A DNA stretch of 28,534 nucleotides, from IMG/VR virus record IMGVR_UViG_3300034004_000012, positions 1 to 28,534 of that record, one strand, 5' to 3'. Below the pieces are notes generated by a model. The model was not told the origin of the DNA, searched no databases, and saw only the letters and a program-made list of their open reading frames with translations. This DNA is from a virus. Each line of letters opens with the position of its first letter. Position 1 is the first letter of the stretch. A program made the translations under genes and the position numbers. This document shows, piece by piece, positions 3,968 to 19,058 of this stretch.

Positions 3968-6400
3968 ATGGCCGCCCTCCTCCGACGCATCGCCGACGGC
4001 CTCACCAACGTGATAACGGGCCTCGGGACCAGCGCCGACGCGCGCCGCGGTCGCGCCTACACCCCCAACATCATCACCGAGGACCAGGTCGCGGCCGCCT
4101 ATTCAGGCTCCGCGATGCTCCGCAAAGCGATCCGCATTCCCGCGCTCGACATGACGCGGGAGTGGCGCGATTGGCAGGCCGAGGCCAAGCAGATCGAGGC
4201 GCTGGAGGCCGAGGAGCGCCGCCTGAGCGTGCAGGCCAAGGTGCTGCAGGCGGAGGTGCTGCGCGGGCTCGGTGGCGGTGCGCTGATCCTTGGCGCGCCC
4301 GGCAACCCCGCCTCCCCGATCGGCGCAGTCGGCAAGGGCGGGCTGGCCTACCTCCACGTGGTCTCGCGCTGGCAACTCGGCCTCGGTCGGCAGGTCATGG
4401 ATCCCGCTGACCTGCTATTCGGCGGACCCGAGCACTTCACGCTCAGCACGACCGGCGGTCAGGTCCAGCTCCACCCCTCGCGCGTGGTCGCGTTCCGGGG
4501 CGAGCCGCTGCCGCTCCACACCGCCATCATGGGCGACGACTGGTTCTGGGGAGATGGCCGCGTCGGCACGCTGATCGACCCGGCGATGAACCTGGACGAG
4601 GCGCTGGCCAGCTTCGCCGCGCTGATCAAGGACGCGCGCAATATCGACATCGGCGTGCCCAAGCTGATGGAGATGGTCGCCACCGTCGATGGCGAGGCGA
4701 CGCTGACCAAGCGGCTGCAGCTCGTTGCGGCGGGTCAGTCCGTGATCCGGGCGACCGTGTACGACGCCGGCGATGGTGAGGGTAAGGGCGGCGAGACGAT
4801 CAGCCGGCATCAGGTGACCTGGACCGGCATACCGGACGTCATCAGCGCCTATGCCCAAGCGCTGGCGGCCGCGTCGGATATCCCCGTCACACGGCTGTGG
4901 GGCACGTCGGCGAAGGGCCTGAACGCCACCGGAGAAGGCGACGACCGCGACTGGAACAAGATGGTCGGAGCGCGGCAGCGCATCGAGCTGCGCCCCTGCC
5001 TCGATCAGATCGATGCGTTGCTGATCCCGTCGGCGCTCGGCTCCCGGCCGGCAGAGATCTGGTGGAAGTTCGCGCCGCTCTCGATCCCGACCGAGAAGGA
5101 AGAGGCCGATCGCTTCAAGACCACGATGGAGGCGGCGGAGAAGCTGCAGACCACCGGCGCGATTCCGGACGTCGCCTTCACCAAGGGCATGCAGAACCTC
5201 ATGAGCGAAGAGGGCTGGATGCCCGGCCTCGACGCTGCGCTCGCCGAGCTGCCTGAAGATGAGCGGTTCGGATTGGGGCAGGACGATCTGGACGCGGACG
5301 AGCCGGACCCAAGCATGCTGCAGGCCGCGAATGAGAACGACCCGGTCGTGCCACGCGCGCGTGCCGCTGCCGATCGCCGGTTCACCGATGCCGCACCGCG
5401 CACGCTATACGTGCAGCGCAAGCTCCTCAATGCGGCCGACCTGATCCGCTGGGCCAAGGCGCAGGGTTTCGAGACAACCACGCCGGCCGACGAGATGCAC
5501 GTCACGATCGCGTACTCGCGCCAGGCGCTGGACTGGATGCAGATCGGGGCGGACTGGTCGAGCGATGCGGCCGGCCACCTCACCGTCGCCGCCGGCGGGC
5601 CGCGCATCGTGGAGCCGCTCGGCGATAAGGGCGCGGTGGTGCTGCTCTTCGGTTCGCAGGACCTGACCTACCGTCATCAGCGCATCCTTGAAGCGGGCGC
5701 GAGTTTCGACTTCGCCGAATACCAGCCGCACGTCACGATCACTTATTCGGCACCACCGGGTTTTGACCCGTCGAAGGTCGAGCCATTCGTCGGGCCCCTG
5801 AAGTTCGGGCCGGAGCTGTTCAGCGAGATCGACGAGGATTGGGCCAGCGGCATCACGGAAGACCAGGAGGTGGGCGACAGGCCGGGCCTCCCTTTCGTTG
5901 ATGCGAAACGGACGACCAAGGCGGGCCGGCTCGCCCGTCGCGTGGTCGGCAAAGGGTTCGATGTCGATCAGCCGCGCGACCGGCACGGCAAGTGGATACC
6001 CGCTGGGGCGCGAAACCTAATCTCCGACGCTGCAGCCGGGCGGACATCGGGCAAGTCCGTCGTGATCGGCAGGGTTGGCGCGCGAGCTGAGCGGATGGCG
6101 TCCCGCGCCGGCGCGTCGATTGCCGATAAGTCCGTCTCGCTGGACCCGAGCATGACTCGCCACATCATCATCCGGCACGGGGCCGAGCGGCGCTCCGGTC
6201 AGAAGAGCGTCCGAGCTGGGGATATCGCCGCTGCCGCCACCTTGCTCAACGCGGCTCGCACGATGCGCCGGGGACGCCCCGCGAAGAACGGTGCAGCGCG
6301 CTTCTCGACGATGACGATCTCCAAGGGGCAGCGGATCTACGCCGTCTTCGAGGCGCGCAAAACGACGGTGGCCTTGGTCACGATGTGGGTGCGGAAATGA
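3968..6400 (+). CDS. Portal-type protein fused to Acb1-like 2H phosphoesterase and PBECR-like nuclease
   Basis: The protein is 810 residues, nearly twice a simple portal. Residues 1-430 resemble the DUF1073 portal group (NIITEDQVAAAYSGSAMLRKAIRIPALDM; DIPVTRLWGTSAKGLNATGEGDDRDWN). Residues about 475-625 hold two H-x-T motifs, MHVTIAYS (H511/T513) and PHVTITYS (H588/T590), the signature of 2H phosphoesterases such as the anti-CBASS enzyme Acb1, which degrades cyclic oligonucleotide signals. After a DQPRDRHGKW linker (667-676), residues 690-810 (HIIIRHG at 732-738; ISKGQRIYAVFEARK; VALVTMWVRK) resemble PBECR nuclease-like domains found at the ends of phage head proteins. The role as portal is established for the N-terminal family; activity of the other two domains here is inferred. 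No Shine-Dalgarno sequence precedes the ATG. Confidence 0.85.
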   Translation: MAALLRRIADGLTNVITGLGTSADARRGRAYTPNIITEDQVAAAYSGSAMLRKAIRIPALDMTREWRDWQAEAKQIEALEAEERRLSVQAKVLQAEVLRGLGGGALILGAPGNPASPIGAVGKGGLAYLHVVSRWQLGLGRQVMDPADLLFGGPEHFTLSTTGGQVQLHPSRVVAFRGEPLPLHTAIMGDDWFWGDGRVGTLIDPAMNLDEALASFAALIKDARNIDIGVPKLMEMVATVDGEATLTKRLQLVAAGQSVIRATVYDAGDGEGKGGETISRHQVTWTGIPDVISAYAQALAAASDIPVTRLWGTSAKGLNATGEGDDRDWNKMVGARQRIELRPCLDQIDALLIPSALGSRPAEIWWKFAPLSIPTEKEEADRFKTTMEAAEKLQTTGAIPDVAFTKGMQNLMSEEGWMPGLDAALAELPEDERFGLGQDDLDADEPDPSMLQAANENDPVVPRARAAADRRFTDAAPRTLYVQRKLLNAADLIRWAKAQGFETTTPADEMHVTIAYSRQALDWMQIGADWSSDAAGHLTVAAGGPRIVEPLGDKGAVVLLFGSQDLTYRHQRILEAGASFDFAEYQPHVTITYSAPPGFDPSKVEPFVGPLKFGPELFSEIDEDWASGITEDQEVGDRPGLPFVDAKRTTKAGRLARRVVGKGFDVDQPRDRHGKWIPAGARNLISDAAAGRTSGKSVVIGRVGARAERMASRAGASIADKSVSLDPSMTRHIIIRHGAERRSGQKSVRAGDIAAAATLLNAARTMRRGRPAKNGAARFSTMTISKGQRIYAVFEARKTTVALVTMWVRK

Positions 6401-6495
6401 CTGGGATGCCTGATCCGCGAACGACCCAGGCTGTACGGCCGAACCGCCTCCCAGCTGGGGCTGCATATACCATTGCGAGGGTGAAGGATCAATGA
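6397..6495 (+). CDS. 32-codon bridging ORF between portal and next gene
   Basis: The ATG overlaps the portal stop (ATGA at 6397-6400), and its own TGA overlaps the ATG of the next gene (ATGA at 6492-6495), so it joins both genes by two start-stop overlaps. The peptide begins MTGMPDPRTTQAV and ends YTIARVKDQ; no domain is recognisable. The double coupling suggests it is translated, either as a real small protein or as a relay carrying ribosomes to the next gene. A chance open stretch cannot be ruled out. Confidence 0.45.
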   Translation: MTGMPDPRTTQAVRPNRLPAGAAYTIARVKDQ

Positions 6496-6890
6496 CGACG
6501 TTCCACGTCGGTCGCGCGATCGTCACCTTCTACCCCGAAGGCGCGTTCACGACCTACCCCGACGGCGCAACCTTTGCCGCTCAGCCGCACGCCACCCCGC
6601 ACTACCAAGTCATCGCGCACCGCTGCGGCTACGGCGACGACCTGCTGGCGTACTGTCGTGAGCACGAGGTGTGCCGCCACCTGATCGGCGAGGCGCTTTA
6701 CGCCGACGGCCGCTCGCCGGTGCTGTGGAACCTCGCCCACCGGGTCCCGGTCGACGATCGCGAGGCGGCACTGGAGGAGGCGGCGGTAATGACGCTGCAG
6801 CGCTGGCTCCGCGCGGACGAGCGGCCGATCATCGGCGGTGTCGACTGGGATGCGCTGAAGCGCCGCGCCCTAGCGCTGCTGGACGGGTGA
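6492..6890 (+). CDS. Conserved-looking phage protein, unknown function
   Basis: The protein is 132 residues, with an AAGGA site just upstream of the ATG. The N-terminal half is beta-rich with many aromatic residues (FHVGRAIVTFYPEGAFTTYPDG, HYQVIAHRCGYGDDLLAYCREHEVCRHLIGE) and the C-terminal half is helical. Cysteines and histidines cluster around residues 37-62 (H37, H43, C45, C55, H58, C61, H63), which could be a metal site but has no clean spacing. Its place between portal and MuF-like gene suggests a head or head-assembly function. I do not recognise the family. Confidence 0.7.
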   Translation: MTTFHVGRAIVTFYPEGAFTTYPDGATFAAQPHATPHYQVIAHRCGYGDDLLAYCREHEVCRHLIGEALYADGRSPVLWNLAHRVPVDDREAALEEAAVMTLQRWLRADERPIIGGVDWDALKRRALALLDG

Positions 6891-6893
6891 CCC

Positions 6894-7694
6894 GTGCGCT
6901 TCGACCTGCTCGCCCTCGCCCGCCGCGCGACAAACCGACGCCGCCGGACTGTCACCCTGCGGGACGTCGTGCCGCCCGCGGTGCTGGCGACGGACCTGTA
7001 CCGGGCGGTCTACGCGCCGGTCGTCGAGCAGTGGGCGCGCGCAGCAGAACGGCTCGCGGCTGAGTACGCGCGTACGCTGGCGGCCATGACGACGGATGCT
7101 CCCGCCGATCTTGGTACCACGCTGGAGCAAGCTGAGGCCGAGCTGTCGCGCCTGATCCTGCTGCTCCGTCCCGCAATGCGCGTCTGGACACTTCGGGTTG
7201 AGGCATGGCAGCGCGGCAAGTGGGTGGGCGCCGCCCTCGCGGCGTCCGGGGTCAATCTCGCCACCCTGCTCGGGCCGGGCGACGTGCAGGACACGCTGGA
7301 GGCGCTGATCGAGCGCAACGTGGGACTGGTTCGCGACGTCGGCGAGCAAGCCCGGCAGCGAATGGCATCGGCGGTCTTCGAGGGGCTGCGCGCGCGAACT
7401 CCGGCGCGCGAGGTGGCGGCCCAGCTGCGCGAGGCGTCGGCGATGTCGCGGCGCAGATCGGTCAACATCGCCTCGGATCAGCTCACGAAGGCAACCTCGG
7501 CGCTGGCAGACGAACGGCGGCGACAGGCTGGGATAGATGAATGGGAGTGGGTGCATTCCCGCAAGGCGCACCCGCGGTCAGAGCATGTGGCGCGGAACGG
7601 GAAGGTGTACTCGGATACAAGCCCGCCGCCGACGATGCCCGGGCAGGAGCCGTTCTGTGGATGTCGGCAGCGGGCTGTGCTGCGGTTCGACTAA
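6894..7694 (+). CDS. MuF-like minor head protein (head morphogenesis)
   Basis: The protein is 266 residues with a GTG start three bases after the previous stop. A long helical N-terminal and middle part is followed by the diagnostic end: HSRKAHPRSEHVARNGKVY, then TMPGQEPFCGCRQRAVL, the conserved region of Mu gpF/SPP1 gp7 minor head proteins. These bind the portal or internal head and are thought to help early assembly or DNA delivery. The protein ends right after the MuF motif, so it carries no extra toxin domain; the nuclease-like domain sits on the portal-type protein instead. Its end overlaps by four bases the end of the convergent accessory gene. Confidence 0.85.
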   Translation: MRFDLLALARRATNRRRRTVTLRDVVPPAVLATDLYRAVYAPVVEQWARAAERLAAEYARTLAAMTTDAPADLGTTLEQAEAELSRLILLLRPAMRVWTLRVEAWQRGKWVGAALAASGVNLATLLGPGDVQDTLEALIERNVGLVRDVGEQARQRMASAVFEGLRARTPAREVAAQLREASAMSRRRSVNIASDQLTKATSALADERRRQAGIDEWEWVHSRKAHPRSEHVARNGKVYSDTSPPPTMPGQEPFCGCRQRAVLRFD

Positions 7695-13373: not shown

Positions 13374-13616
13374 ATGTCGGCAGACGCCCTGATCATCGCC
13401 CTTGTCGAGCAGCTCGTGCGCAAGGGCGCGCTCAATGCCGACGACGTCGACGCCATGGCCGAGCGTCTCGATGGCGAAGGCGAAGATGAGGCGGCGCATT
13501 GGGCTCGTGCCGCGCTGGTCCAGGCCATGGCCACACCCGCGAGCGAGTGGAGCGCGGATCAGGCCCGATCCCGCTTCCGGATCGTCACCTCTGACGGCGG
13601 TAACCGCGAGGACTGA
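13374..13616 (+). CDS. Small acidic protein, unknown function
   Basis: The protein is 80 residues from the ATG at 13374. It is acidic and helical (ALIIALVEQLVRKGALNADDVDAMAERLDGEGEDEAAHWARAALVQAM), with a repeated D/E pattern. GGAG abuts the ATG, an unusually short spacing. Its last codons contain element copy 5, so the protein end is constrained by, or dispensable to, that element. No function can be assigned. Confidence 0.55.
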   Translation: MSADALIIALVEQLVRKGALNADDVDAMAERLDGEGEDEAAHWARAALVQAMATPASEWSADQARSRFRIVTSDGGNRED

Positions 13617-13659: not shown

Positions 13660-14094
13660 ATGTCGCTGCCCAACGAACCCGATTTCGCCCTGGTCCGCAT
13701 CGGTAGCGGCCCGACGCCTCCGATCGTTTGCGGCATCGAGAGCATCAGCCTCAACCAGACTGCCAACACCTCCGACCGCTTCCGCCGCGACTGCGCGAAG
13801 CCCGGCGAGGTGCCGACGCGCAAGGTTCGGGTCACCGGCAGGCAATGGGACGTCACCGGCTCCGGCGTCATCAACATCGACGAGTTCGACACGTTCGAGG
13901 ACTCGCTGGGCACCTCGAAGGCCTACACCATCGAATTCGGCAAGCGTGACGGCAGCGATGCGGGCGTGATCGTCGGCAAGTTCGTCGGGAACGCCGTGAT
14001 GACCGCGGCCAACCTGAACATGGGCGATGATGAAGGCACGGCCGAGATCACGCTCGCCGGCGAAGGCCCGATCGTCTGGACGCCGACTCCGTGA
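13660..14094 (+). CDS. Major tail tube protein
   Basis: The protein is 144 residues, with GGAG upstream. It is largely beta-strand (RKVRVTGRQWDVTGSGVINIDEFDTFEDSLGTSKAYTIEF, then VGKFVGNAVMTAANLNMGDDEGTAEITLAGEGP), as expected of the tube fold. Position immediately before a GTA gp10-type chaperone and the tape measure supports tail tube identity. Short length fits a single-domain siphovirus tube subunit with no decoration domain. It should be abundant in virions. Confidence 0.8.
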   Translation: MSLPNEPDFALVRIGSGPTPPIVCGIESISLNQTANTSDRFRRDCAKPGEVPTRKVRVTGRQWDVTGSGVINIDEFDTFEDSLGTSKAYTIEFGKRDGSDAGVIVGKFVGNAVMTAANLNMGDDEGTAEITLAGEGPIVWTPTP

Positions 14095-14531
14095 CCGATG
14101 CCCTGACCCTCGACTTCGGCCCGGGACGCTACACCTTCCGCCTCCCCATGGCGCGCATCATCGAGGTCGAGCGGCTCTGCGGCGATAAGTCGATCGTCGC
14201 GATGTACGAGGAGATGTCAGCGGGCATCGGCATCGGTCGGGACGACGACGAGGCGCGGTTTGTCGGCGCCGGAACTGCCCGCATTAAGGACGTCTTCGAG
14301 ATCATCCGCTGTGCCGCCATCGGCGGCGGCGAGGCCGAGATCGCGGGCGAGACCGTCAAGGTCGCTCCCAACGACGCCGCGCGACTGGTCAGCGAGTATG
14401 TCGACGGCCGCCCCTACTCCGAAACGGTGCCCGTCGCCTGGGCCATTCTCCACCACACTGTGATGGACGCCCGGCTCAAAAAAAAAGCGCCGGAGCAGGT
14501 GGGCACAAGCCCTATGACCGCGGCAGCATAA
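14091..14531 (+). CDS. Tail assembly chaperone, GTA gp10-like (short form)
   Basis: The protein is 146 residues and starts at a GTG overlapping the tail tube stop. Residues 8-60 (LDFGPGRYTFRLPMARIIEVERLCGDKSIVAMYEEM), then KDVFEIIRCAAIGGG and VAWAILHHTVM, fit the GTA_gp10 tail assembly chaperone family. The chaperone coats the tape measure during tail assembly. Near the end, nine A residues at 14478-14486 (codons AAA AAA AAA) give a classic slippery site, and the -1 frame continues to 14701. The short form is made by ribosomes that do not slip. Confidence 0.85.
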   Translation: MTDALTLDFGPGRYTFRLPMARIIEVERLCGDKSIVAMYEEMSAGIGIGRDDDEARFVGAGTARIKDVFEIIRCAAIGGGEAEIAGETVKVAPNDAARLVSEYVDGRPYSETVPVAWAILHHTVMDARLKKKAPEQVGTSPMTAAA

Positions 14532-14701
14532 TCGCGTCGTGCGGGGTGCTCCGGCTGGACTGGCGTGACGTCGGTGCGGGCGAGCTGGCGGAGGCTGTGG
14601 AAGCCCACAACGCGGTGAACAGCGGGCCGGCCAAGGACGCCGCCGAACCTGCGTCAGCGGAGTTCAGGGCGTTCATGAAGGGGCGGTTTGGGCGGGGCTA
14701 G
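14091..14701 (+). CDS. Tail assembly chaperone, -1 frameshift long form
   Basis: If ribosomes slip back one base on A-AAA-AAA at 14480-14486, reading continues from AGC at 14486 for 71 codons to TAG at 14699-14701, giving a 203-residue fusion. The downstream frame has no ATG near its beginning, is well composed (HKPYDRGSIIASCGVLRLDWRDVG; AEFRAFMKGRFGRG), and ends in an FMKGRFGRG-type tail. Established: many long-tailed phages make G/GT-like chaperone pairs this way. The slip is inferred from sequence and gene position. Nothing else explains coding potential in 14532-14701. Confidence 0.7.
14478..14487 (+). other. Slippery A9 run for programmed -1 frameshift
   Basis: Nine consecutive A bases followed by G, in frame as three lysine codons. 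The heptamer A-AAA-AAA at 14480-14486 fits the X-XXY-YYZ rule. Such a run is conspicuous in an otherwise GC-rich gene and lies where the -1 frame becomes open. Confidence 0.7.
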
Positions 14702-14749
14702 TCTGCTCAGCAGCGTCCCTGGGCGCGGACCCAAGAGGGGGGTGACACC

Positions 14750-14768
14750 GTTACAGTGCTCACGTAAC
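14750..14768. promoter_or_regulatory. Small inverted repeat before accessory pair
   Basis: GTTAC (14750-14754) and GTAAC (14764-14768) face each other across nine bases, ending 10 nt before the ATG at 14779. The arms are short, so this could be an operator or chance. The ribosome site of the gene itself is weak. Confidence 0.25.
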
Positions 14769-14778
14769 TGGATTGAGC

Positions 14779-15075
14779 ATGAGCACCTTCGCGATTTTAA
14801 CACGTGTGGCGGGGCAGAACCTCGAGGGCTATGTTGCAGCGGCATATCCCGATAATCATTATGTGTGGTCGCCCTCTGTTGTGTTTGTACAATCCTCAGG
14901 CACTGCGCGTGAGATTAGCGAGCGCGTCGGTATCACCCGTAAAGACGCGGCCGGGAACCTGACGGGCGCTATCAATCAGGCTGTCGTCGTAGAGATCAAG
15001 CCGAGCTACTGGGGCTTCACTGACCAGACCCTTTGGGGTTGGCTGAAAAGCTCCTTCGAGACGCCAAACTCATGA
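14779..15075 (+). CDS. Accessory small protein, possibly Cas2-like ferredoxin fold
   Basis: The protein is 98 residues from ATG 14779 (a TTG at 14773 is also in frame). It has the order strand (MSTFAILTRVAG), helix (LEGYVAAAY), strand (VVFVQSSG), helix (TAREISERVGI), strand (AVVVEIKPSYWGF), helix (TLWGWLKSSF). This beta-alpha-beta order resembles small Cas2/SinR-like ferredoxin-fold proteins, though no catalytic residues can be assigned. It is visibly less GC-rich than the tail genes. Its stop overlaps the next ATG (ATGA), so the two genes form a coupled pair inserted between the tail chaperone and the tape measure. The fold call is a guess from pattern only. Confidence 0.6.
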   Translation: MSTFAILTRVAGQNLEGYVAAAYPDNHYVWSPSVVFVQSSGTAREISERVGITRKDAAGNLTGAINQAVVVEIKPSYWGFTDQTLWGWLKSSFETPNS

Positions 15076-15524
15076 GCCGAACGCGCGGCGGATCGGCTCC
15101 AGAAGGCGCGCCCGGAGAGCTGCCACAGGGCGCACCTGAGGAGCTGTTCCCCACGAACAACATCCGATTCGTGATCTGGGAGGTCGCGAGGCTCACCGAA
15201 CGGGTCGACAACATCAGCGCGGCTGTCGACAAGGTCGGAGAATCAATCGCGAAGGGGTTTGACCGTCACTCGGCGGATCTGAAAGAGCGCATTGGCGAGC
15301 TGAAGCAGCCCATGGTCGATCTGCGGGCCGACGTTAAGGAGCGGCACTCTGAACTGAAAAAGCCCATCGAGGACGTGGAATCTGACGTGAAGGGCCTCAG
15401 AACAGAGATCGAGGAAATCGGACGGAAGGTAGCCTTCGTTAAAGGTGCCATGTGGGTTTTGGGCGGACTCTTCGCGATCCTCCTCCTCGTGGCAGCCGCA
15501 TTCCTGCGGAAGCTTTTGGAGTAG
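15072..15524 (+). CDS. Coiled-coil protein with C-terminal membrane anchor
   Basis: The protein is 150 residues from the ATG overlapping the previous stop (start 15072, 13 codons inside the longest frame). Residues 1-30 are Pro/Gly-rich; about 35-120 form a long coiled coil with repeats of the type LKERIGELKQPMVDLRADVKERHSELKKPIEDVE; residues about 125-146 (GAMWVLGGLFAILLLVAAAFL) are a membrane helix, with basic residues after it. It would be a tail-anchored cytoplasmic coiled coil. Coupled translation with the small protein before it suggests that they act together. Superinfection exclusion or defence is a reasonable but untested idea. Confidence 0.7.
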   Translation: MSRTRGGSAPEGAPGELPQGAPEELFPTNNIRFVIWEVARLTERVDNISAAVDKVGESIAKGFDRHSADLKERIGELKQPMVDLRADVKERHSELKKPIEDVESDVKGLRTEIEEIGRKVAFVKGAMWVLGGLFAILLLVAAAFLRKLLE

Positions 15525-15544
15525 CGGGTCGGAAGCCGTGCCGA

Positions 15545-15796
15545 CTAGACCCCGTACCGCTTATTCCCGCCGCTCGTGATGCAATACCGCCCGCCGCGCG
15601 GTCCGATGCAGACATCGCCGCCGTTGCAAGGGCAAGATCCCGCGGTGGTGCCGCGCGAACCGTACGCCGAGTAGCCGCCGGTCTTCGCCCGCTTCGACTT
15701 CTTCGCGTAGCTGTACCGGCGTTTCGCATCCGCCTGCTCCGCAATGCAGCCGGAGAAGGCTAGGGCGAGCGCGCCCAGAGCCAGTGTGATCCGCAT
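15545..15796 (-). CDS. Cys-rich putative lipoprotein with basic adaptor-like end
   Basis: The protein is 83 residues with a GGGGGGAG ribosome site. The first 17 residues form a signal peptide ending LALAFSGC, a plausible lipobox with Cys17. The mature part is basic (KRRYSYAKKSKRAK) and then Cys-rich (C55, C57, C63, C72). The end GPRGGRYCITSGGNKRYGV resembles the short basic adaptor-type motif (PF08789-like GPRGGxYxxxxxGxKxY). It should be exported to the periplasm or outer membrane. It lies on the reverse strand next to another reverse accessory gene. Lipoprotein morons often block superinfection; here that is only inference. Confidence 0.65.
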   Translation of the reverse strand: MRITLALGALALAFSGCIAEQADAKRRYSYAKKSKRAKTGGYSAYGSRGTTAGSCPCNGGDVCIGPRGGRYCITSGGNKRYGV

Positions 15797-15940
15797 TGTC
15801 TGCTCCCCCCGAGTCGATCTGAGGTGAGGCTAACGGCGAAGCGGGCGGCGTCTAGTCCAGCGGCAACCGTGCGTGGCCGAGGCAACAGTCCGGGTCGGGC
15901 AGGTCAGCGGAATGATTACAAGAGATTGCATAAGCCGCGC

Positions 15941-16174
15941 TTACCGGCGGCCAGCGCGCCCTTCCGCTTCTGCTGCGGCCTCTAGCCGATCAGCCTCGCG
16001 CTCAAGGTTCTCTGCCGCCTGCCGCTCGGACATCGCATTGTATGCAGAGTTCACCTCGTCGATCACGCGATCCTGCCTGTTGAGCTCTCCCATGACCGAC
16101 AGGATTAGGACGGCGAGCAGTGCGGTCGCGACATTTCCAAGAAACACGCCCAGTGCGACTCTACCAATGGACAA
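15941..16174 (-). CDS. Accessory membrane protein with coiled-coil tail
   Basis: I start this at TTG 16174 because AAGGAG lies six bases upstream on that strand; a GTG at 16189 and longer frames reaching into the tape measure gene are less likely. The 77-residue product has one membrane helix (RVALGVFLGNVATALLAVLILSVMG, about 5-29) and a charged helical tail (AYNAMSERQAAENLEREADRLEAAAEAE). Its Shine-Dalgarno sequence directly abuts the element copy at 16186. It may be transcribed with the Cys-rich lipoprotein gene 144 bases downstream. Function unknown. Confidence 0.6.
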   Translation of the reverse strand: MSIGRVALGVFLGNVATALLAVLILSVMGELNRQDRVIDEVNSAYNAMSERQAAENLEREADRLEAAAEAEGRAGRR

Positions 16175-16185
16175 GTGCCTCTCCT

Positions 16186-16222
16186 TCACGGCGGTAACGA
16201 TTGGCTGGTCGCATAGCGTAAC
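16186..16222 (+). promoter_or_regulatory. Late-unit element copy 6 (before tape measure)
   Basis: The 13-mer reads TCACGGCGGTAAC (one mismatch, second base). CGTAAC follows 18 nt after GGTAAC. The element begins 62 nt before the tape measure ATG, which has a GGAG site. The mismatch lies where the divergent gene's ribosome site and alternative GTG start begin, so both strands compete for the same bases. Confidence 0.55.
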
Positions 16223-16247
16223 GGGGTGAGGCAACCCCGGAGCCGCC

Positions 16248-19058
16248 ATGCCCACCGTCGATCCTGTGATCCTCCGTCTATCGGTGGAAGCCGGCAACTA
16301 TGAGAGACAGCTTCGTCAGACCACCCTTTCCGCTGACCGTAGCCTTGCCAAGCAGGAGGCCGCATTCACCCGGTTAGAGCGCCAGGTGCGCGCGTCATCG
16401 GGCGACATGAGCGGCAGTCTGAAAGCGCTCGCCGGATCCTTTGCTGCGTACTTCTCCGGGCGCGAGTTGGTCGGCATCATCGACTCGTTCACCCAGTTCC
16501 AGAACAAGCTGCGTGTCGCCGGGGTGGAAGGTTCCGCACTAGGCGAGGTTCAGGATCGGCTGTTCGCATCGGCGCAGCGCTACGGCGTTGAAATCGGCGC
16601 TCTCGGCGGGCTGTTCGGTTCGTTGACGCAGGCGTCGAAGGAACTTGGCGCATCACAGGAGCAGGTGTTCAAGCTGACGGACACCGTCTCGGCCGCCTTG
16701 AAGGTGTCGGGTGCCTCTGCTGGCGAGGCGTCCGGGGCGCTTCAGCAGCTGGGTCAGTCCCTCCGCGGCACGAAGGTGCAAGCCGAAGAATATAATAGCC
16801 TGCTGGATGGTCTCTTTCCCTTGCTGCAGGCGGCTGCAGACGGCTCGGAGAGGTTCGGCGGCTCCGTCGGCAAGCTCACTGCGGCCGTGAAAGATGGAAA
16901 GGTCACGAGTGCGGAGTTCTTCGCGGCGATACTCAATGGCTCGGCGGCACTGGAGGCGAAAGCCGCAAAATCCGTGACGACGGTTTCCCAGGCGTTCACA
17001 CAGCTCGGCAACGCCCTGACCATCTACGTCGGCCAGGCAGCCCAGACGAGTGGGACGCAAGCAGCTCTTGCCGAAGGCATCGGCGCACTAGCGCGCAACA
17101 TCGACGTGATCATTCCGGCGGTCGTGGCTCTCGGTGTCGCACTGGGCGTCGGGTACGTTGCGAATGCCACGAAGGCTGCGATCGCAACCCGGGGTGTGCA
17201 GGGCGCGATGCTCGGCGCGTTCGGTGGGCCAGTTGGACTTTTAATCAGCGGCTTGGTGATCGCGATCGGTGCCCTCTCCGCCGAGGCCACGCGCCACGAT
17301 GCCGTGATCCTCGACATCAATCAGCGTTATGACGAGATGCGGCAGAGGCTCGCGGCGGCGGGCGGCGAAGCTGGTCGTGCGGCGGGTCAGACGACAGGAG
17401 TTGGCTCCGCAGCTGCCGGTGCTGTGCCGGGTGTGGAAAGCCTGACCGGCAAGGTTCGATCGCTTGCAGACGAGCTCTATCGTCAGGCTGACGCGGCGAA
17501 GAAGGCACGGATAGCGACAGCAGCGAAAGCAGTCGCCGATGCGGAGCGGCGAGAGATCGCAGCAGGGAATGAAACCGCAGCGGCAAGAAGCGCGTCAGTC
17601 AGCCAGTTACGACGTGGTGATTTCCTCAATAACATCGGTGTGCTCGGTCGTGCAGTCGTAGGCGGCGCAAGGAATACGCTTTCCGGCGGCCGCACCGATC
17701 GCGAAGCAGCGGCGGCGTATGCCCAAGCGGTTCAGCTCAGCCAGCAGGCGAAAAAGGAGCTGGCAGACGCCTACCGCGGGCCCAACGGCGGCGGCACGAG
17801 TGGCGGCGGCGGTAGAACTGCCGAGCCGAAGAAGACGAAGAAGGGTCGCGCTGGCCTGTCTGCGGAGACGCTGGCCAACCGCGCGGAACGCGAAGCCGAG
17901 CAGCGTCGGGAGGAGCAGCAGCGCATTTCTGACCAGATCGCCACAGCTCAGCTCGGCTATCTGCAGGAACTCGCGAGCACCACGCAATCGGCGGCGGAGC
18001 GAGCGAAGCTGGAGGTCGCCGCAGTTGAGGCGACCCGCGTCGCCAACGAGCAGGATCTGCGCAACAACGAGAAGCTGAATGCTGCGCAACTCGCCCAGCT
18101 CATCTCGATCAACGACCGTACGGCTGCGGTTCGGAAACGACAGGTCGACGAGCGTGAAGCCGAGCGGGTCCGCCTGCAAGCCCTCTCCCTCACCCAAGAC
18201 GCGCTGCGCGCGGAAGATGACCTCCTGCAGTTGCAGTCGGGCCTCGCCGGCTCTCAGTCTGAGCGCCGCGGCATCGAGCTGCGCCGTCTGGACATCGCCG
18301 ATCGGCTTGAGCGAGCGGCTCTAGCGGAGGAGATTGCGGCGGCCGCGATCGCTGGAGATACCGCCCGGTTAGCCGGCGCTCGCAAGCGCCTCGCCGATCT
18401 GGAGGAGAAGAAGGCGCTCCAGACCGAAGACGTACGCCGCGGGACGGAAACGCCCGGCCAGCGCTACAACCGAGAGATCCGCAAGACGGCCGGTGAAATC
18501 AACGAGGACGTCGAGGCGATACAGGTCCGCGGGCTAAACGAGCTCAACGACGGCCTTGCCGACGCGATCATGGGTGCCAAGTCGCTGGGGGAGGCCTTCA
18601 GCAATGTGGCCAATCAGATCATCGGAGACCTCATCCGCATTGCGATCCAGCAGGCAATCATCAAGCCGCTCGCCGGTGCTCTGTTCGGCGGCGGCGCCGG
18701 CGGCGCGCTGAGCTCACTGGGCTCTCTCTTCGGTCGAGCTTCGGGAGGGTACGTCGCGCCGGGCCAGATGGTCCGTGTCAACGAGGCCGGCAGCCCGGGT
18801 CGCGTCGAGGGGTTCCGCCCCGTCGGCGGCGGCACCATTGTCCCGCTCGGCCAGATGAACACACTACCGGCGGGTGGCGGCGCGTCGGGCAACATACTGG
18901 TGCGCGTGATGCTGTCGGATGATCTTCGCGCGGAAGTTGCTCAAGTTCGCAGCGATATGCCGGGTATCGCGGTGGAAGTCGTCAGGGCCAGCGCCCCTGC
19001 CCTCATCGATGCCGCCACGACGACGACCTTCGCCCGCATGCGCAGTCCGACCCTCTGA
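16248..19058 (+). CDS. Tail tape measure protein
   Basis: The protein is 936 residues. Residues 1-250 fit the tape measure N-terminal domain (DPVILRLSVEAGNYERQLRQT; FTQFQNKLRVAGVEGSALGEVQDRLFASAQRYGVEIGAL). Hydrophobic segments at about 280-345 (VIIPAVVALGVALGVGYVA, GPVGLLISGLVIAIGALSA) are typical of tape measures that insert in the host membrane. A long helical charged middle is followed by the lambda-like end (QAIIKPLAGALFGGGAGGA, RASGGYVAPGQMVRVNEAG). It sets tail length and is ejected ahead of DNA. By the usual 0.15 nm per residue rule the tail would be near 140 nm. The stop codon is part of element copy 7. Confidence 0.95.
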   Translation: MPTVDPVILRLSVEAGNYERQLRQTTLSADRSLAKQEAAFTRLERQVRASSGDMSGSLKALAGSFAAYFSGRELVGIIDSFTQFQNKLRVAGVEGSALGEVQDRLFASAQRYGVEIGALGGLFGSLTQASKELGASQEQVFKLTDTVSAALKVSGASAGEASGALQQLGQSLRGTKVQAEEYNSLLDGLFPLLQAAADGSERFGGSVGKLTAAVKDGKVTSAEFFAAILNGSAALEAKAAKSVTTVSQAFTQLGNALTIYVGQAAQTSGTQAALAEGIGALARNIDVIIPAVVALGVALGVGYVANATKAAIATRGVQGAMLGAFGGPVGLLISGLVIAIGALSAEATRHDAVILDINQRYDEMRQRLAAAGGEAGRAAGQTTGVGSAAAGAVPGVESLTGKVRSLADELYRQADAAKKARIATAAKAVADAERREIAAGNETAAARSASVSQLRRGDFLNNIGVLGRAVVGGARNTLSGGRTDREAAAAYAQAVQLSQQAKKELADAYRGPNGGGTSGGGGRTAEPKKTKKGRAGLSAETLANRAEREAEQRREEQQRISDQIATAQLGYLQELASTTQSAAERAKLEVAAVEATRVANEQDLRNNEKLNAAQLAQLISINDRTAAVRKRQVDEREAERVRLQALSLTQDALRAEDDLLQLQSGLAGSQSERRGIELRRLDIADRLERAALAEEIAAAAIAGDTARLAGARKRLADLEEKKALQTEDVRRGTETPGQRYNREIRKTAGEINEDVEAIQVRGLNELNDGLADAIMGAKSLGEAFSNVANQIIGDLIRIAIQQAIIKPLAGALFGGGAGGALSSLGSLFGRASGGYVAPGQMVRVNEAGSPGRVEGFRPVGGGTIVPLGQMNTLPAGGGASGNILVRVMLSDDLRAEVAQVRSDMPGIAVEVVRASAPALIDAATTTTFARMRSPTL

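Follow-up and report, generated by a model that had tools for sequence, protein, structure and literature searches.

The window analysed here is a 28,534-base IMG/VR virus record; by its sequence the phage is a siphophage with relatives among the prophages of sphingomonads. The interval of interest lies between the tail assembly chaperone and tape measure protein (TMP) genes (Table 1). A sequence-only reading had described about 1.5 kb with two plus-strand and two minus-strand genes at this site. Open reading frame (ORF) calls agree, placing small genes A and B on the plus strand and C and D on the minus strand, within 1,547 bp between the end of the chaperone frameshift product (14701) and the TMP start (16248). 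The same reading took A and B for a coupled pair, as borne out by the overlap of the B start codon with the A stop (ATGA) and by the recurrence of this gene order outside the window. It also assigned membrane or export signals to three of the four products. Hydrophobic 19-residue stretches were indeed found at the C-terminus of B and the N-terminus of D (mean Kyte-Doolittle 2.56 and 2.38), with a weaker one at the N-terminus of C (1.77). GC3 was 0.64, 0.74, 0.83 and 0.67 for A to D and 0.74 for TMP; the values of A, B and D are low for this phage, that of C is not. Searching the DNA of the region against phages gave no match.

Table 1. Features in and around the chaperone-TMP interval (window coordinates).
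Feature	Position	Strand	Remarks
Promoter-like element ACGGCGGTAAC before MTP gene	13594..13604	+	Probable source of MTP-TAC-T transcript
Major tail protein (MTP)	13660..14094	+	phrog_1407
Tail assembly chaperone, G-type frame	14091..14531	+	Phage_TAC_11, E 8.7e-10
A9 run in CTCAAAAAAAAAG	14478..14486	+	Likely frameshift site into T frame; T-frame stop ends 14701
Gene A, 98 aa	14779..15075	+	First gene of A-B unit; ferredoxin-like alpha/beta fold (weak model)
Gene B, 150 aa	15072..15524	+	Pro-rich start, coiled coil, C-terminal TM segment (127-145)
Gene C, 83 aa	15545..15796	-	Signal-like start, basic linker, C-terminal four-Cys module (phrog_2459)
Gene D, 77 aa	15941..16174	-	TTG start with SD-like AAGGAGAG; N-terminal TM and charged helix; TMP-proximal
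TMP promoter-like element	16188..16220	+	ACGGCGGTAAC at 16188-16198, TA at 16219-16220; right-hand cargo border
Tape measure protein (TMP)	16248..19058	+	TMP_3, E 7.5e-51

Relatives were gathered by TMP searches of viral contigs and genomes and with a profile of ten chaperones, and the interval was measured from the T-frame end to the TMP start. Both genes were present in 74 loci, 60 of them distinct; 40 of these (window included) encode a frameshifting chaperone with an A-run, the feature that defines the set, L015 being retained with an A-run outside the usual context. By a mechanical rule (<200 bp empty, >200 bp occupied), 20 of the 40 intervals were occupied and 20 empty. Inspection of L180 revealed a short antisense zinc-ribbon/TM frame, read by eye from the printed sequence, in its 241-bp interval; since the mechanical rule had missed this frame, the count was revised to 21 occupied and 19 empty. 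A further 20 distinct loci lack the A-run and fall outside the 40 (three intervals under 200 bp, 17 over); several, such as L035 and L040, have another sense gene at the site and were left out of the counts. Chaperone and TMP genes, previously held to be normally adjacent, are so in only 19 of 40 loci, and this generalization does not stand.

Cargo differed even among close relatives. Of the five loci nearest by chaperone (60-74% identity), L182 is empty, while L179, L180, L181 and L183 carry genes unlike those of the window: lipoprotein-like genes of one family in L179 and L181, and a different lipoprotein-like gene in L183. Elsewhere the site holds an HNH nuclease (L044; PF01844, E 2.6e-13), two other genes (L081), an antirepressor (L106; phrog_63, E 2e-45) or, by reading of the sequences, HicAB-like pairs (L189, 8616-9091; L210, 8607-9307). 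The four-gene set of the window was found in none of the five nearest loci, nor in L044 or L081. Presence of the same four genes in all relatives, as a structural role would predict, was looked for in this comparison and not found. The earlier description as an accessory island is thus strongly supported by sequence comparison, with contents ranging from nothing to several unrelated genes. That A-D are structural or assembly genes of the tail, as their position inside the tail module might suggest, is very improbable given the empty loci, the unrelated proteins in the others and the antisense orientation of two of the genes relative to the late strand. A moron is an added gene separating backbone genes that adjoin each other in relatives; the genes agree with this definition, and the interval is very probably a moron (cargo) hotspot.

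The right-hand border of the cargo was characterized through the strict element ACGGCGGTAAC in 27 loci hand-picked from the phage group of the window. All 45 distinct copies lie on the late strand (45/45). A TA follows exactly 19 nt behind the element in 34 of 44 usable copies, yielding the bipartite motif TGACGGCGGTAAC-N19-TA, and a start codon lies 31-32 nt behind it in 20 of 45 copies, a spacing at which messages would be leaderless. These features suggest a promoter-like motif used phage-wide to produce leaderless late messages. Copies in the window, all on the plus strand, lie at 1461 (one mismatch), 3925, 7988, 11458, 13594, 16188, 19058 and 26159. The copy at 16188, listed in the sequence-only reading as the sixth, is slightly off consensus, with TTC before it and a spacer of 20 instead of 19. 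When the window is aligned with L180, L179 and L006, the match picks up again exactly at 16188, the first base of the element; in L179 and L006 the resumed match is only the 10-11 bases of the element itself.

In most occupied loci the stretch from the antisense start to TMP contains this element or a looser version of it, and many empty loci have one ahead of TMP. Allowing up to one mismatch, the element was found at 9 of 20 occupied versus 8 of 20 empty sites (p = 1); its presence does not predict cargo, and the notion of a promoter element as a precondition for cargo was discarded. An earlier claim that the element restarts TMP transcription is upheld by comparison as regards its fixed position before TMP with or without cargo, its promoter activity being predicted from sequence. 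Across the 19 loci measured, most antisense genes begin 50-74 bp from the TMP start (74 bp between the D and TMP starts), so their promoter would overlap the TMP promoter or lie within the TMP gene. A scan of 14400-16500 for sigma-70 promoters and terminators returned none. None of the literature matches listed for the element string concerns such a promoter, by title.

Orientation of the TMP-proximal cargo gene was uniform, being antisense to TMP in 20/20 mechanically listed loci and 21/21 with L180. The 20 genes comprise about nine protein families and hence do not represent 20 independent events. L209 was counted by its antisense HNH frame in place of the sense frame of the gene-caller, and in L106 a sense gene, read as a gp10-type tail gene, lies between the antisense gene and TMP. 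A TM or signal-like stretch was detected in 18 of 20 proximal cargo proteins (19/21 with L180), the two exceptions being HNH nucleases (L044 by Pfam, L209 by similarity to L044). The same measure gave 6/251 for late-strand backbone ORFs of 100-500 aa and 82/1,130 for antisense ORFs outside the interval (145/1,130 if any start codon is allowed); starts were chosen by hand for the proximal cargo proteins and mechanically for the backbone, which biases the cargo towards signal-like starts. No antisense rule for TMP-proximal genes was found among the papers listed for the chaperone-TMP site.

Individual cargo genes were also recorded. A small BLAST-linked, lipoprotein-like family lies directly upstream of and antisense to TMP in L181 (8834-9181), L179 (9184-9735) and L212 (10536-10925, minus). 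In L103, the first 47 residues encoded by a lipoprotein-like gene just before TMP (5017-5499, minus) match the Cor superinfection exclusion family (E 1.7e-5). Behind the chaperone of L107, sense cargo (6382-7092, minus) encodes a 236-aa TM protein of phrog_12870 (unknown function, E 6.5e-85).

Gene D had one homologue among the 20,978 ORFs of the collected loci, in Sphingomonas sp. Leaf33 (L038, E 8e-7), where it is antisense and near TMP, on its downstream side. Searches returned nothing in viral contigs; 298 genomes gave a single weak match, interrupted by a stop. The closest precedent for the site is HK97, whose record places gp15, a 'moron product' absent in HK022, between gp14 and TMP. 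Cumby et al. (2012) reportedly described gp15 as a moron conferring superinfection exclusion. PMC10883804 presents gp15 as an exclusion protein that is escaped by way of the HK022 tail tube and TMP. D and gp15 are both small TM proteins encoded between a frameshifted chaperone and TMP, with the same N-terminal TM topology and similar size (77 and 62 aa). In contrast to D, which is antisense and accompanied, gp15 is sense, stands alone and has an annotated terminator. The two sequences align at 24% over 42 aa (pairwise E 0.035), and 139 of 2,000 segment shuffles scored as high. As this similarity is within chance, D was not accepted as a gp15 homologue.

A second comparison is offered by Pseudomonas phage JBD26, where Tab is an antisense defence gene with its own promoter and TMP as its target, and anti-Tab is a sense gene in the late operon (PMC10884400). 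Like the window, JBD26 has small morons on either strand, placed at a border within the late region; unlike A-D, Tab and anti-Tab lie between terminase genes, and no homology with A-D was seen. No sign of A or B countering C or D, as in that pair, was seen. At the inner membrane, SNIPE associates with TMPs (PMC13190303), and TMP-linked action is reported for both TP-J34 Ltp and SNIPE (PMC10883804 and PMC13190303). Ltp, SNIPE and Cor share with the window cargo products a (predicted) envelope location; in library scans A-D had no sequence match to any of them, the L103 lipoprotein alone touching the Cor family. PADLOC-DB models gave no convincing match (best for B, of coiled-coil type, E 0.005; none for A, C or D), and none for ten A-B homologues. 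Superinfection exclusion, as proposed in the sequence-only reading, keeps its plausibility from the HK97 site precedent and the envelope targeting, and is weakened by the PADLOC result and the unsupported D-gp15 homology.

Searched directly, gene A had no counterpart among viral contigs, phages or 298 Sphingomonadaceae genomes. A weak full-length plasmid match was obtained in Rhizobium tumorigenes (24.5% over 96%, E 0.3). With this relative as query, one weak match was found in 298 genomes and two in 297 genomes, and none in viral contigs, phages or five genomes reached by locus. A itself as query in the order matched twice in 296 genomes (L265, E 8e-6; the other weak, with an internal stop), and an A profile in the class matched two places in one genome of 190. 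Relatives of A as queries recovered only the same plasmid among plasmids, and nothing among phages. The outside homologues number six (L259, L265, L266, L267 and two in L270), and a profile of four homologues built without A recovers A at E 3e-13.

In all six cases (6/6) the next same-strand gene, adjoining or overlapping, encodes a coiled-coil protein with one TM stretch. A profile of four such counterparts detected B of the window with E 4e-5 over its full sequence and 0.11 for the best single domain (20,978 decoy ORFs); for B, shared order and topology therefore weigh more than sequence. On these comparisons A-B is a conserved two-gene unit. B itself had no match in phages. For neither family did Pfam, PHROG or PADLOC return a noteworthy match, although A of L267 touches phrog_1090 (E 0.006). 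That A-D are chance ORFs or decayed remnants might be argued from the lack of an SD-like motif before A and the low GC3 of A and D; the homologues of A, C and D, and the conservation of the A-B order at six other places, make this scarcely credible. As separate observations, the annotation of Rhizobium plasmid NZ_CP117258 omits the B-type gene of L259 (3264-3578), and a HicAB-like gene pair lies near A-B in L266 (6085-6869, by sequence reading).

A lysis or toxin-antitoxin module, with B as membrane effector or XhlA-like holin regulator under the soluble control of A, was considered because B combines a coiled coil with a following TM segment and weakly matches an XhlA-like family (phrog_937 'hemolysin', E 3e-4). 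A-B of L266 also lies near a DUF1515 protein and, by reading, near tail-fibre-like and lysozyme-like frames. This interpretation is unlikely, as no XhlB-like partner was seen, the constant partner of B is A and not a holin, and weak matches abound for coiled coils (33 Pfam and 46 PHROG families with E ≤ 1). An XhlA-XhlB lysis pair was accordingly rejected for B despite the fitting topology.

A ferredoxin-like model of A was obtained by single-sequence prediction at pLDDT 76.9 in one of five models, the other four being about 40. Its best Foldseek match had E 0.016 (2ivy, Sso1404, a Cas2 protein), with none below 0.001 among Cas2-type and many other matches; in VIA, Z reached 6.7 at most, all rows lying under Z 8. 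The structural match gives no more than a common ferredoxin-like arrangement, and the Cas2-type matches are not significant. Sequence searches of solved structures with A or C yielded nothing of use.

Gene C ends in the module CxC-x5-CxGPRGG-x-YC-[IF]-TSGGNKRY. Alignment of 21 proteins showed 18 invariant columns in the last 30 residues, the four Cys among them. In viral contigs, 105 of 119 candidate stretches encode C relatives, of which 80 were kept. Ten large neighbours of C relatives were scanned: five match TMP families (L096, L103, L107, L109 and L118), and the others are two primases, a transposase, a terminase and one unnamed family. TMP is also near the C relative of L106, and in both L106 and L107 the C homologue lies antisense between chaperone and TMP, as in the window. 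In Pasteurella phage Pmp3, one of a series of small genes downstream of the chaperone encodes a module-bearing lipoprotein-like protein, and Acinetobacter phage Aclw_8 has a C-module gene between tail terminator and MTP. Judged by these contexts, the family is often found in tail modules and is not confined to them; many phage-borne exported proteins carry the module, several beside tail genes. Behind the Pmp3 gene lies a HATPase gene with an HSDR_N/PDDEXK-like part (L086:3866-5824), possibly a defence gene.

The phrog_2459/SH3 proteins of Acinetobacter phages (Vieuvirus) have a near-identical C-terminal four-Cys module and are likewise encoded in the tail module; they differ from C in an added SH3 domain and in being sense, between tail terminator and MTP. 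C had been called a Cys-rich, lipoprotein-like protein. Its signal-like start stands, and the lipoprotein call was set aside: Cys-17 sits in AFSGC, which does not fit the canonical lipobox consensus, and the nearest homologues (L088, L105, L106, L107 and L109) lack the Cys while keeping a signal-like start. A structure prediction from the 21 sequences was unusable (mean pLDDT 54, pTM 0.19), and the module string had no match in the literature searched.

The C module also ends longer proteins in 7/298 Sphingomonadaceae genomes (186-267 aa in the five frames read). This occurrence fits lysogenic conversion without phage exclusion, in which cargo would alter the host envelope or stress tolerance and so pay for the prophage; the envelope targeting of most TMP-proximal cargo would likewise suit any envelope function. 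Such conversion leaves unexplained the fixed place beside TMP, a target of several exclusion proteins according to PMC10883804 and PMC13190303, although a permissive border could also explain that place. We regard it as a serious if somewhat unlikely alternative.

We favour a moron hotspot at a transcription-unit border, filled from both sides and likely used for lysogenic conversion against the entry of other phages, to which we assign a probability of roughly 0.55. The left transcription unit would end with the frameshifted chaperone and the right unit would start at the promoter-like element of TMP. Cargo between them would break no tail gene and, given the position of the element in the comparison and its predicted promoter activity, would leave TMP transcription intact. 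Sense A-B behind the chaperone would probably be read with the late transcript; antisense C and D, read away from TMP, would probably be expressed in the lysogen by analogy with tab of JBD26. From their sequences, the predicted site of action is the inner membrane for D and the periplasm or cell surface for C.

The small, mostly membrane-bound or exported cargo proteins probably protect or modify the infected host cell. Most likely they would serve a lysogenic conversion in which entry by other phages is blocked or altered, with D acting in the manner of HK97 gp15. A-B would form a separate membrane module, pairing a soluble alpha/beta partner with a membrane-anchored coiled coil, and most likely serving in an exclusion or abortive role. 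We suggest only tentatively, at slightly worse than even odds, that at least one of A-D acts in phage exclusion. The site also holds HNH nucleases, HicAB-like pairs and an antirepressor, making it a general cargo port and not an exclusion cassette by definition. A more far-reaching proposal is distinctly doubtful: a dedicated exclusion port at the chaperone-TMP border, whose antisense envelope gene is swapped together with the phage's own TMP and closes the lysogen to phages whose TMP-mediated entry its product recognises, with A-B as an additional, undescribed two-gene membrane defence system (ferredoxin-like sensor, membrane-anchored coiled-coil effector) moving as a unit among alphaproteobacterial prophages.

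A moron at the chaperone-TMP site was known from HK97. What is new is the apparent regularity: half of this phage group uses the site, and the cargo gene beside TMP is antisense in every case, with a product nearly always bound for the envelope. Two concrete candidates for testing emerge: the pair A-B and the four-Cys module that ends C. Our scans matched neither to any Pfam family. The regularity provides a simple rule for collecting candidate exclusion genes in phages of little-studied Alphaproteobacteria.
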